DNA of 37,308 nt from Prolixibacteraceae bacterium (GTDB lineage: Bacteria; Bacteroidota; Bacteroidia; Bacteroidales; Prolixibacteraceae): contig JAFGAF010000392.1 of NCBI GenBank assembly GCA_016933815.1, forward strand, positions 1 to 37,308. Reading direction: 5' to 3'. The notes beneath the pieces were generated by a model. That model saw only the letters and a list, made by a program, of their open reading frames with translations, did no database searches and was not told the DNA's origin. Both the position numbers and the translations under genes were made by a program. Shown here in pieces: positions 30,553 to 36,182 of the stretch; within the stretch, counting starts at the first letter, position 1, and each line of letters begins with the position of its first letter.

Positions 30553-31044
30553 CTACTGATGAATTTTTTTACATTTACCCGACCAATTTTCAATATCGAG
30601 ACGAATGATTTCGGTTCTATCGAATGATTTTTGGGCATATTTAAGTCCTACCTCCTTATCGCCGGGCGAATATTTATCAATGATCAGCTCCAATGCCTTC
30701 ATTCGTTCCGATTCAGACAAAGCTCGGCTTGCCTTGCAATTCAATATAATGCTCTCATATTCGGTTGTAAATTTTTCGGATATCACATTGGTTTTACCCA
30801 CCACACAAAACGAAACAGCGTTGTTATCATTAATACATTTTAGCTTTTGGCCTTGCTGAGCACAATGAATGTAAAGTGCTGATTTGCCGTCCCAAGCATA
30901 ATTTAGCGGTAGGCCATAAACGCCATGTTCATTGCAATACATCGATAACACGCCATATTCGCCTTGGCTTAACAGCTGAGTTGCCGCAGTTTGATCGAGC
31001 AAGCGATCTTGCCTGCGCACTGCTGAATTCGAATAATCCATCAT
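30553..31044 (-). CDS. Pyridoxamine 5'-phosphate oxidase-family (NimA-like) flavin-binding protein
   Basis: EYGVLSMYCNEHGVYGLPLNYAWDGKSALYIHCAQQGQKLKCINDNNAVSFCVVG. Confidence 0.87.
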   Translation of the reverse strand: MMDYSNSAVRRQDRLLDQTAATQLLSQGEYGVLSMYCNEHGVYGLPLNYAWDGKSALYIHCAQQGQKLKCINDNNAVSFCVVGKTNVISEKFTTEYESIILNCKASRALSESERMKALELIIDKYSPGDKEVGLKYAQKSFDRTEIIRLDIENWSGKCKKIHQ

Positions 31045-31071: not shown

Positions 31072-32307
31072 CTACTCCTCCGTTTCGTCAGCCTCTTCGC
31101 CAAACAGTTCATCTAGTTCTTGTTGTTCGGCAGCTTCGGCAGCAGTCTCTTCGGCTTGTTCGGCAAGTCGGGCCGAAATATCGTTCATAAACACCTGGGC
31201 AATTCCATAAGCAGGCAACTCACTTGTTCCATCGTTTTTATTGGTACAAGCCGTTACAACCAAATTGTATTCAGGACAAATAATAATTGCCGAACTGCCA
31301 CCAATAGTATTTCCTATTTGGGCAATAATCTTACGTTTTTTTGCGTCGTCGAAAACCATCCAACCAAAACTACGTCCGGTTTCGACACCGTTTGACAATT
31401 TGTGCGAATTAGAAAACAGGCCTATACTTTCTTCGTTAAAAAAACCTGGCGATAAAAGTTGGCAGGCAAAATGGTTTAAATCGTCGGCGGTTGAGAGCAA
31501 ACCATGCACAGGGCTAAGGGCTGTTAAGTTTAATTCGTTAGCATTGATCAAACGTGCCAGATAATCGAGCGTGTATGCTTCGCTTCGGTTTGGTACAATT
31601 AAAAAAGGATAATCGGCGCTGGTATTGCTTAAATTTAACGAATCGAGGATCATTTCTTTTAAAAGTTGATAGTAATGTTTTCCACAAATTTGCTCGGCTA
31701 CAATGCCCAACATAGCAGGTGCGTAATCCGAAACCTGAAAATAGGTGTCGGGTTCGTAAATAAGCGGAGAAGTATCGAACAGTTTTACATATTCGCGCAA
31801 AGTTTTCAAATTATCAAAATCGGCAAGACTTTCAATACGTGTTGGTTGTAGGCCTGCCGAATGTGTGCCCAACATCCTTAGGGTAAAATCGAAATCTTTT
31901 TGCGGATAATTTGGAATATAAGCATAGAAACTGCTGTCAACGTTTAATTTTCCTTGTTGCTGCAACAACGCAATAACAGCTGCGGTAAAAGTTTGTGCGG
32001 TATTACCAATTTTAAACTTCGTTTGTCGGGTAACAGGGGCATTCAGTTCCTTACTGGCCAAACCTGCCCCTTCGGACCATATAATTTCGTTATTAAGCGA
32101 AACCGAAACCGATATACCCGGGCTAAACGATGTTAGCAAAAAATTACGAATTAGATCGCGGCTTTCGGTAATTGGAGTTTTGTATTCGTTATTCACTAAA
32201 CGCAACGAAGTATCGGTTTTCTGACACGATAACGAAACTAAAAACAATACAACTATTGAAAATCTTTTTGCAAAAGAAACAAAATTCATGTGTAAAAAAG
32301 CATTCAT
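31072..32307 (-). CDS. Beta-lactamase-related (PBP4*/AmpC-fold) serine hydrolase-like lipoprotein, catalytic motifs not conserved
   Basis: Lipobox VLFLVSLSC; fold signatures VTRQTKFKIGNTAQTFTAAVIALLQQQGKLNVDSSF, GTHSAGLQP, PDTYFQVSDYAPAMLGIVAE, AQIGNTIGGSSAIIICPEYNLVV. The start could also be ATG 32289. Confidence 0.82.
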   Translation of the reverse strand: MNAFLHMNFVSFAKRFSIVVLFLVSLSCQKTDTSLRLVNNEYKTPITESRDLIRNFLLTSFSPGISVSVSLNNEIIWSEGAGLASKELNAPVTRQTKFKIGNTAQTFTAAVIALLQQQGKLNVDSSFYAYIPNYPQKDFDFTLRMLGTHSAGLQPTRIESLADFDNLKTLREYVKLFDTSPLIYEPDTYFQVSDYAPAMLGIVAEQICGKHYYQLLKEMILDSLNLSNTSADYPFLIVPNRSEAYTLDYLARLINANELNLTALSPVHGLLSTADDLNHFACQLLSPGFFNEESIGLFSNSHKLSNGVETGRSFGWMVFDDAKKRKIIAQIGNTIGGSSAIIICPEYNLVVTACTNKNDGTSELPAYGIAQVFMNDISARLAEQAEETAAEAAEQQELDELFGEEADETEE

Positions 32308-32355: not shown

Positions 32356-34881
32356 TTATTTAAAAATATCGTTGAACAGCTTTTTGGCAGCATCTTCGAG
32401 TTCCTTGGGCGAACTGTTCTTTAACTGATTTATAACCTGCTGCTTGATCTTATCGTTATCGACAATTATCTCGGGTTTTTTGGCATCGCCTTTAACAAGC
32501 ATGCCCACGTCGATTTTTTGGATGCGCTCGTGCCCCGGCACGTATGCAATCATTGAAAGCAAATTATTCGACAACAACGACTTATCGACTGTAGCATCAA
32601 CCCTCAAATCGACAGTACCACCCAAGTTATAAGTTCCGCCAAGCCTTACCGGTTGCTGCATTACTTTTGTCGAAAAAGGTTCAATGTTCAGGTTTCCGTC
32701 TTTTATGGCATAATGAGCAGTAAAATTATCGACCTGAACATTTCGCAGTTTATTGGAGGCAATTACGGTGCTTAAATTTTTTAAAATACGGGCATCGACC
32801 AATTTTAGATTTTGTACAGTTAACGCCCCCTTTGCATTCAATTCCGAAGCAATTAGCTTTAAACTATCAGAAAGTTGGGTTTGCATATTCAGCTTGGTTG
32901 AGAAACTCCCTTGGCTCGATGCTGCAAAAGGCATGTATTTTTGCACAAGCGACAACTGGCGGTATGCTTCTTTTATATCGAAATTTTTAATGTCGAGAGT
33001 AAAATCAACATCGGGGTGCAAACGGCCATCGGCAATAGCTTTGCCGTCCATTTTCATCCTTCCTCCAATCATATCCATGTTTAAACCATTAAGATACAAG
33101 TGTTGATTTTTTAGCACAACATTGCCTTTTGTATTGGTAATGTTCATTTTATCGATAAGCATTTGCTTCACATCTGCATCGAAAACCAAATGCATTTTCT
33201 CGGGCAATTCAATCGGGCCGGTGCTTGCAGTTTGAGTCGAGTCGGTTTCGAGATACACCGATTTTACACTATCGGCCGGTTGATAAGCTGCCATAAACTC
33301 ATTTAAATCGAGCAATAACGACTGCCATTTAAGTTTTCCGTAAAGCTCACCACCTGCCCACATGTATGAAATCACATTATTCAACGAGCCACTTACGCGA
33401 AAATCGCTTCGGCCTATACGCCCTTGTAATCCGTCAACATCAACTGTTTCATTTTTAAGTTTTAATGCGGCATTACTAATTTCAACACCTTGCGGCACGC
33501 TACTATTAATTATATAGAATTTTGATAATCCGAGCTCACCTTCCGATTTGAAATTCTGGTAGCTTCCGCTTTCAATTGACGAGTAATTACCAGCGATGAT
33601 TGCATTTGCTGTTAACATGCCTTTAAGTTGTGTATCGCCAAGCGGAATAACTTTCGATAATGTTTCGAGATCGACCACCCCGTTGAACGACACATCGAGT
33701 TTAGGATCGGTGAATAACTGCGAAAACGCAGCTTGTAACGACAAAGGATTATCGGCCAAAAACATATCGAACTGTGAAATGCCCAATTCAACTTTATCGA
33801 GTTCGCCTTCGGGTTTAACTATTTCAGCTTTTAGCTTAACAATTTCGAGCCTGTCGGGCAATTCGGGATATTGAAGCCAGGCATTGCTTACATCAAAATT
33901 AACAGCTATTGAAGGATAAACATTGTTGTAATAAACCCCCAACAGCGAACCATCGAAATTTATGTTACCATCGGTTTTAACATTGGCCAGGTACTTTTGA
34001 TAGTCTTGTGGCACCAATTGAAGCAGCCGGGGCATGGAAATATCGGGCACATCGAATTGTATATCGAATAAAATTGAATCGCCGGGCATCGAAAAGCCGC
34101 CTTTTAAATCAAGCGGAAAGTTGTTCAACTTACTGCTGCCGCCTTCGAATTTAAAATCGAACTTATTTAAATCGGCATTTAATTTCGTATTAACAGCAGT
34201 CTCGAGGTTTTTCAAATAATAAACTTTGCCATAGCGGTAGTTTAGCGAAGGTGTGGCAATTTCAACATTCAACAAGGTGTTCATGCCTTGCATCTCGCCC
34301 TGCATTTTTCCGTTAACATCGTAAACTGCAAATTCGTAATCGGACGAACGGCTTAAATAAACCACATCAATATCGGAAAGTACAATGCTTTTCAAAAGCA
34401 ACTTTAGTTGTTGATCGGGTTCGTTTGTTGCAGTATTGCTTGTTTCTTTTTGAGAAAGATTGAGCGAATCGACATCTAAAGTCGTTTTTTGTTCAATTTC
34501 CCAGTTATAAGCGCCGTTGGTTCCGGCAATAAAATTCAGCTTACCATTACTAATTTCCAACGACTTAAGCAACACATCGGATTTACGCAAAACACTCATA
34601 ACATCGAGTGTTGCACTAAAATATCCAAAATACAACAGCGTATCGTTTTCGAACTGGTTTTTGCCTACAACCGAAATATTTTGAAATGTTGCAGTAAAAT
34701 CGGGGAATGAACGCAACAAAGCAAGATCGAAACTTTCGTAATTGATACGGGCATCGACCATTGTGTTTATTTTCTGCAAAGCCAATTGGCTAATTTTCTC
34801 TTTGTATAAAACAGGTACAACGAAAAACGCAGCCAATAAAAGCACGAATATTAAACCTAAAACTACCAAAAGCTTCTTCAT
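32356..34881 (-). CDS. AsmA-family protein
   Basis: N-terminal TM, NYESFDLALLRSFPDFTATFQNISVVGKNQFENDTLLYFGYFSATLDVMSVL; C-terminal AsmA_2-like VPGHERIQKIDVGMLVKGDAKKPEI. Confidence 0.88.
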   Translation of the reverse strand: MKKLLVVLGLIFVLLLAAFFVVPVLYKEKISQLALQKINTMVDARINYESFDLALLRSFPDFTATFQNISVVGKNQFENDTLLYFGYFSATLDVMSVLRKSDVLLKSLEISNGKLNFIAGTNGAYNWEIEQKTTLDVDSLNLSQKETSNTATNEPDQQLKLLLKSIVLSDIDVVYLSRSSDYEFAVYDVNGKMQGEMQGMNTLLNVEIATPSLNYRYGKVYYLKNLETAVNTKLNADLNKFDFKFEGGSSKLNNFPLDLKGGFSMPGDSILFDIQFDVPDISMPRLLQLVPQDYQKYLANVKTDGNINFDGSLLGVYYNNVYPSIAVNFDVSNAWLQYPELPDRLEIVKLKAEIVKPEGELDKVELGISQFDMFLADNPLSLQAAFSQLFTDPKLDVSFNGVVDLETLSKVIPLGDTQLKGMLTANAIIAGNYSSIESGSYQNFKSEGELGLSKFYIINSSVPQGVEISNAALKLKNETVDVDGLQGRIGRSDFRVSGSLNNVISYMWAGGELYGKLKWQSLLLDLNEFMAAYQPADSVKSVYLETDSTQTASTGPIELPEKMHLVFDADVKQMLIDKMNITNTKGNVVLKNQHLYLNGLNMDMIGGRMKMDGKAIADGRLHPDVDFTLDIKNFDIKEAYRQLSLVQKYMPFAASSQGSFSTKLNMQTQLSDSLKLIASELNAKGALTVQNLKLVDARILKNLSTVIASNKLRNVQVDNFTAHYAIKDGNLNIEPFSTKVMQQPVRLGGTYNLGGTVDLRVDATVDKSLLSNNLLSMIAYVPGHERIQKIDVGMLVKGDAKKPEIIVDNDKIKQQVINQLKNSSPKELEDAAKKLFNDIFK

Positions 34882-34922: not shown

Positions 34923-36182
34923 TTATTTTTTAAGCAACTCGAGGCGCAGCATATCGAGCGCCATTTGCGATGCCCTAATAATATTTCGTTCGCGGTTACG
35001 GGTAAAACTGAACTTCTGAGCGAATACACCTTCGGGCGTAGCCACTGCCACCCAAACCATACCTACCGGCTTTTCATCGGTTCCGCCATCGGGGCCGGCA
35101 ATACCCGAAGTAGCCACAGCATATTCGGCATCAAGTGCATTGCGAGCACCTAAGGCCATTTGGCAAACCACTTGCTCGCTTACCGCGCCATAATCGTCAA
35201 TCAACTGCTGATCGACCCCCAAAATATTCACCTTAGCCTCATTGGCATAGGCAACAATTGAACCTTTAAACCACCGCGAACTGCCGGGCTCGGAGGTTAT
35301 GCTGTGTGCAACAAACCCACCGGTACAACTTTCGGCCGTAGCCAAGGTTTTTTGTTTTAGCAGCAAAAGTTTGCCAACAACTCCGGCCAACGTATCGTCG
35401 TTATAACCAAAAATGGCATCGGGAATAATCAACATCAATTTTTCGATTTGTTGATTTACTTGTTCAGCCAAATCGGCCTCGCTTTGACCAAAAGCAGAAA
35501 ACCGCAGGCGAATTTGCCCCGGGTTTGGCAAATATGCCAGATGAATATTCTCGGGCAAAGCATCTTCCCATTCGTCGAGTTTTTCGGCCAGTTTCGATTC
35601 CGGAATGCCAATGGTAAGTACTGTTTTATGGTAAATTGCTCCGGCGCCGTTAATTTTGGCCAAACGGGGCAAAACATGCAGGCTCATGATGTCTTTCATT
35701 TCGTAGGGAACGCCGGGCATCGAAACAAAAATGGTTTCGTTTTGCTCGAACCACATTCCTGGAGCAGTACCTTGCGGGTTGAATAAAACCTGACAATTAT
35801 CGGGAACCATTGCCTGATCGTGATTAAGTTGACCAATAACCGGCATGTTACGCATCCTGAAAAAATCAACAATATGATCGAGCGTAGCTTGGTGCAAAAC
35901 CATTTTTGAATCGAAATATTCGCATAAAACCTTTTTGGTTCTATCGTCCTTTGTAGGACCGAGTCCACCGGTAATGAGCACCACATCGGCTCTTTTGCGT
36001 GCATCGTTCAGCGCGCTCACCAAATGGTCGGGGGTATCGGATATTGATGTAATTTGTTCAACTTTTACATTAATTGCGTTTAACTGGGAGGCCATCCAAG
36101 CCGAGTTGGTATCAACAATTTGACCAATCAGAATTTCGTCGCCAATAGTTATTATTTCTGCTCGTTTCACTTTTGGTATCAT
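34923..36182 (-). CDS. cinA: CinA-family protein with nicotinamide-nucleotide amidohydrolase (PncC-like) C-terminal domain
   Basis: AEIITIGDEILIGQIVDTNSAWMA, VLITGGLGPTKDDRTK, ATAESCTGGFVAHSITSEPGSSRWFKGSIVAYANEAK, TSGIAGPDGGTDEKPVGMVWVA. Confidence 0.96.
   Translation of the reverse strand: MIPKVKRAEIITIGDEILIGQIVDTNSAWMASQLNAINVKVEQITSISDTPDHLVSALNDARKRADVVLITGGLGPTKDDRTKKVLCEYFDSKMVLHQATLDHIVDFFRMRNMPVIGQLNHDQAMVPDNCQVLFNPQGTAPGMWFEQNETIFVSMPGVPYEMKDIMSLHVLPRLAKINGAGAIYHKTVLTIGIPESKLAEKLDEWEDALPENIHLAYLPNPGQIRLRFSAFGQSEADLAEQVNQQIEKLMLIIPDAIFGYNDDTLAGVVGKLLLLKQKTLATAESCTGGFVAHSITSEPGSSRWFKGSIVAYANEAKVNILGVDQQLIDDYGAVSEQVVCQMALGARNALDAEYAVATSGIAGPDGGTDEKPVGMVWVAVATPEGVFAQKFSFTRNRERNIIRASQMALDMLRLELLKK

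Follow-up and report, generated by a model that had tools for sequence, protein, structure and literature searches.

A putative pseudoenzyme lipoprotein family of Prolixibacteraceae related to LACTB-like serine hydrolases

The locus and its lipoprotein gene

The window, that is, the whole stretch of 37,308 nucleotides that was analysed, comes from a fragmented MAG of a Prolixibacteraceae bacterium (584 contigs, 81.6% complete). It carries a gene for a predicted lipoprotein, which lies between an AsmA-like gene, 48 bp away, and a gene resembling pyridoxamine-phosphate oxidases. The initial annotation had described the lipoprotein ORF as full length and intact, which it is, and its coordinates were exact; however, they were given for the plus strand with the coding strand unnamed, and the ORF actually runs on the minus strand. 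The features of the locus are as follows.

30553..31044, minus strand: pyridoxamine-phosphate-oxidase (Pyridox_ox_2)/Nim-like gene, 27 bp downstream of the putative pseudoenzyme gene and on the same strand
31072..32307, minus strand: putative pseudoenzyme lipoprotein ORF, 411 aa, intact from ATG to stop; alternative start Met7 at 32289
31075..31161, minus strand: acidic helical C-terminal tail (EQAEETAAEAAEQQELDELFGEEADETEE), family-variable; from sequence and the AF2 model
31222..32124, minus strand: PF00144 beta-lactamase/PBP domain, residues 62-362; profile match
31312..31320, minus strand: HxG position, Q330-I-G332, followed by NTIGG; translation and alignment
31726..31734, minus strand: YxN position, V192-S-D194; translation and alignment
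31861..31863, minus strand: His149 of LxTHxxGL, kept in the window protein and matching LACTB pocket residue H216; alignment
31993..32004, minus strand: SxxK position, N102-T-A-Q105; translation and alignment
32224..32307, minus strand: predicted signal peptide and lipobox VSLSC, with Cys28 as the probable lipidated residue; from sequence
32356..34881, minus strand: AsmA-like gene (named from its look), 841 aa, directly upstream; no Pfam or NCBIfam match
34923..36182, minus strand: CinA, 41 bp upstream of the AsmA-like gene and on the same strand

The N-terminus has the signal peptide and lipobox cysteine by which bacterial lipoproteins are recognized, and Cys28 is kept in 96% of the clade described below (by weight), so that the window protein is probably exported and lipidated. 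In Bacteroidota lipoproteins, an acidic signal after the cysteine is the rule for surface export. Residue +2 of the window lipobox is Gln, and the acidic signal is absent downstream of Cys28; because of this absence, the protein would be expected to face the periplasm.

The domain that follows is matched by PF00144 at 135.4 bits, against a Pfam gathering cut-off of 27, with an E value of 3.3e-39 and over most of the profile (14-315 of 329). Elsewhere, the same MAG has five further PF00144 matches, including one that falls at a contig end. Two of these proteins reached the full alignment, and both keep their motifs (SISK/YSN and SVGK/YSN).

Catalytic motifs and predicted fold

Discussions of proteins with the PBP/beta-lactamase fold nearly always treat them as serine enzymes. 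Homology and fold place the window protein in PF00144, yet it lacks the catalytic hallmarks, whether those of PBP/beta-lactamase enzymes in general, class C beta-lactamases, or LACTB. Where these enzymes have SxxK it reads NTAQ, the [SY]x[NT] position is V192-S-D194, and the [KH][ST]G-type position is Q330-I-G332. The register was taken from an alignment of 156 sequences, which shows no gap ambiguity at the motifs, and from a pairwise alignment to human LACTB. Translation and alignment thus bear out the three replacements that had been read from the letters at the outset.

The fold itself is, by prediction, intact: given the mature protein and 103 aligned sequences, AlphaFold (AF2) produced a model with a pLDDT of 95.4 and a pTM of 0.93. 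The best Foldseek match of the model in the PDB is human LACTB (E 1.3e-27, TM 0.77), followed by D-stereospecific peptidases, an FmtA-like protein, and the R61 DD-peptidase. A sequence comparison with PDB chains likewise puts human LACTB (PDB 7ulw, 7v21) first (E 2.7e-25), and its motif positions occur in the same order. These are 164-SISK-167, 323-YST-325, and 485-HTG-487, with H216, H222, and Y223 near the catalytic site (PMC9815587). LACTB keeps all three motifs and is active (PMC9815587, PMC2266909). In contrast, the window protein has NTAQ, VSD, and QIG in their place, carries a lipobox, and has no mitochondrial import.

Comparison with class C beta-lactamases (AmpC; NF033085) gives a similar picture. 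The fold is the same and there is a partial profile match, but this match reaches only 75.5 bits against a curated cut-off of 415, and the window protein is without equivalents of Ser64, Lys67, and Tyr150. Closer at hand are active LACTB-like PF00144 proteins of Bacteroidota, which by both profile score and tree are the nearest active relatives. Some of these share the lipobox. Unlike the window clade, they have all three motifs (SISK/YSS/HGGGSVGG) and the His/His/Tyr of the LACTB pocket, and they are without the fixed D222-T223, P365, and Y42 of the clade. In the phylum at large, many of the active PF00144 relatives have longer open frames, of 500-800 aa, with extra sequence.

A clade confined to one family in the sampled genomes

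Orthologues were collected by searching 149 relatives with the window protein and then by a profile search of 140 sampled Prolixibacteraceae genomes, with clade membership set at E <= 1e-60. Clade members were found in 75 genomes, which include 59 of the 103 good-quality genomes and 12 of the 23 genera of the family; named hosts such as Sunxiuqinia, Mangrovibacterium, and Gaoshiqia identify the family as Prolixibacteraceae. The nearest relative of the window protein is 49% identical to it. The gene is missing from about 43% of the good-quality genomes, and in two genus relatives it was undetected behind the AsmA-like gene; thus, the family can do without it. No clade member from outside the family appeared in the sampled genomes of the order (393), class (395), or phylum (396), and a spread beyond Prolixibacteraceae was therefore rejected. 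The best matches outside the family score at most 313 bits, compared with at least 380 bits for full-length clade members, and those whose motifs were read are of the active type. Since the order, class, and phylum genomes are samples, rare members may occur elsewhere.

Within the clade, Ser is found at position 102 in 12 of 75 members and Lys at position 105 in 3 of 75, and the two never occur together (0/75). The initial annotation would have been contradicted by orthologues that retain SxxK, and there are none. Tyr192 and His330 are likewise each absent from all 75. In contrast, relatives outside the clade (n=81) have the Ser/Lys pair in 79 of 80 readable cases, the Tyr in 81 of 81, and the His in 78 of 81. 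Position 105 of the clade is mostly Glu or Gln, and Lys occurs at position 330 in nine members, all of which are without the other two motifs. The HxG motif is replaced with respect to its His but not its Gly, as Gly332 is kept in 92% of the clade and G336 in 100%. Nor are the replacing residues themselves conserved, a point that the initial annotation had proposed to test for N, Q, and V; they vary from member to member. A pair consisting of E105 and Arg or Lys at position 330 spans the old active site in 38 of the 75 (a raw count). A swapped charge pair, E105-R/K330 in place of K-H, is not claimed, the tree-aware test being underpowered (8 pairs, p 0.25-0.375).

In a tree built with the catalytic columns removed, one branch (SH-aLRT 98) separates all clade rows from the others, so that there is one change of state, and the nearest neighbours of the clade are LACTB-like active proteins. 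The simplest history is one loss of catalysis followed by drift at the old active site.

Structural positions are retained in the clade. The active relatives have 31 positions with a conservation of at least 85%; 20 of these are kept in the clade and 11 are lost, the latter including S102, K105, H149, Y192, G268, Y312, G313, and H330. By the register of the pairwise LACTB alignment, H216, H222, and Y223 correspond to positions 149, 155, and 156. His149, although present in the window protein, is found in only 45% of the clade compared with 98% of active relatives; positions 155 and 156, where the active sister group has His (92%) and Tyr (100%), respectively, are lost. At the same time, the clade has newly fixed residues outside the motifs: Tyr42, Ile46, Asp222-Thr223, Asp232, Pro365, and Phe373. 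On the clade tree, the former catalytic columns undergo 16-30 changes, which places them at the 46th-87th percentile when all columns are ranked; the figures for D232, D222, and P365 are 1-4 changes (5th-13th percentile).

Purifying selection is evident in 55 close clade pairs, whose median dN/dS is 0.14 (0.08-0.32) compared with 0.065 in 30 active pairs; the pairs are not independent, and the window protein, with its own branch outside the measure, is in none of them. The clade is thus constrained, somewhat relaxed relative to its active relatives, and the value lies well below 1, as the initial annotation would have it. The same loss in 75 of 75 relatives, all in one family, suggests that the window protein is an old, maintained non-enzyme.

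Together, these results argue that the clade is a conserved family of pseudoenzymes whose ancestor was a LACTB-like serine hydrolase, and its members would have no hydrolase activity. Pseudoenzymes as a kind are already known. A clade of dead LACTB-like envelope lipoproteins, or of dead PF00144 lipoproteins generally, was not found described in the literature searched, whose coverage mostly excludes subscription journals, and its absence there is therefore a weak sign of novelty. Judged by its profile match alone, the window protein would be labelled a beta-lactamase or serine hydrolase. By the same token, PF00144 matches in Prolixibacteraceae genomes are by themselves no evidence of hydrolase or resistance function. 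A clade that is without all three motifs and is still under selection offers a clean natural test of the fold without catalysis.

Possible roles and the gene neighbourhood

The explanation that best fits the observations, to which we give a probability of about 0.6, is as follows. The ancestor would have been a LACTB-like serine hydrolase of PF00144, and a single loss of catalysis would have occurred in the common ancestor of this Prolixibacteraceae clade. Thereafter, the protein would have been kept as a folded non-enzyme, lipid-anchored and facing the periplasm, where it may bind another envelope protein or a peptidoglycan-associated component in a scaffold or adaptor role. The old pocket drifts and positions outside the motifs have become newly fixed, so that binding would most likely involve a surface different from the former active site. 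The pseudoenzyme lipoprotein proposed in the initial annotation is supported to this extent: no orthologue keeps SxxK, the domain has no substitute site, and selection is purifying. A related formulation, in which a dedicated non-catalytic PBP/beta-lactamase branch arose by one loss of the three motifs and serves as a Prolixibacteraceae envelope scaffold or receptor with a rewired active site (Glu/Gln for Lys, Arg/Gln/Lys for His), is tentative, with the odds somewhat against it.

The old cleft could instead have become a receptor, which binds a small ligand such as a muropeptide or D-amino-acid peptide uncut and reports or delivers it. As the predicted fold and the beta-strand glycines of HxG are kept, the cleft probably still exists. 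There is also a precedent for signalling by dead serine proteases in CspC of Clostridioides difficile, the fold of which is subtilisin-like. This pseudoprotease has been kept for non-catalytic signalling (PMC6636752), a possible working likeness to the clade but an analogy only, since fold and biology are unrelated. However, the positions lining the cleft (102, 149, 155, 156, 192, 268, 312, and 330) vary within the clade, unlike a site for a single ligand. This drift, and the variation of the replacing residues, argue against a single ligand being conserved there, and a receptor role of this kind is unlikely.

Still less probable is an enzyme whose catalytic residues have moved, giving new chemistry on the same fold. 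Several polar residues are newly fixed in the clade (D222, D232, Y42, K97, and K137), and position 105 is usually Glu or Gln. Nevertheless, the PF00144 domain of the window protein contains neither another SxxK, the only two in the protein being at residues 11 and 27 (signal peptide and lipobox), nor a new YxN. Its sole GxSxG, at residue 311, falls within a variable stretch. Two polar residues that are invariant, D276 and N356, occur in the active relatives as well and look structural. A different Ser, Lys, or Tyr in the active site would have told against the first reading of this protein, and the search for SxxK and YxN and the ordinary rates of change at the former catalytic columns give no sign of one.

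It is about equally improbable that the protein regulates an active LACTB-like paralogue by hetero-oligomerization. LACTB is the closest fold, and human LACTB forms filaments by way of a dimer interface and the L15 loop. In two genomes, a gene of the active sister group lies near that of the pseudoenzyme, at about 8 kb in G078 (about 5.0-6.2 kb and 13.9-15.1 kb) and at about 14 kb in G072, an arrangement that may go back to an old duplication. However, the active sister is present in only 18 of the 75 clade-bearing genomes, and regulating it cannot be the general function. Nor can the pairing be obligate, as near-complete genomes of Sunxiuqinia, Mangrovibacterium, and Gaoshiqia have the pseudoenzyme without the sister. 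Finally, a decaying pseudogene or a sequencing or assembly error, which a single MAG in this many pieces might suggest, is refuted by the 74 other members, some of them from isolates such as Sunxiuqinia and Mangrovibacterium, in which the frame is open and the losses are the same, and by the dN/dS of 0.14; the gene had rightly been taken for a maintained one.

For the proposed scaffold or adaptor, no partner can be named from the neighbourhood, as no neighbour is conserved across genera. The order of the AsmA-like gene followed by the pseudoenzyme gene is seen in all four genus genomes that have the pseudoenzyme. Two genus relatives (G005 and G007) have the AsmA-like gene with nothing pseudoenzyme-like behind it, and in another (G003) the contig ends there. 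Whereas CinA and the AsmA-like gene are the neighbours in the genus of the window, in Mangrovibacterium, Gaoshiqia, and genus g18 they are biotin-dependent carboxylase subunits, in Sunxiuqinia a C1-like peptidase, and in other genera an SDF symporter, a histidine kinase/regulator, and DUF4230. A conserved operon partner was therefore rejected.

Several features of these neighbours deserve mention in their own right. The AsmA-like protein belongs to an unannotated envelope protein family, as a search of 12 genomes turned up a relative in every one (29-50% identity outside the window genome). The Pyridox_ox_2 protein resembles the NimABCDEF 5-nitroimidazole reductases at 92.6 bits, far under the curated cut-off of 260, and thus a label of resistance gene would be unwarranted. 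In several genera, the pseudoenzyme gene lies at or near a cluster for a biotin-dependent carboxylase (biotin carboxylase, biotin carrier, and carboxyltransferase); of the six loci concerned (L133-L136, L141, and L142), five have the complete cluster, and this is perhaps the ancestral location of the gene.
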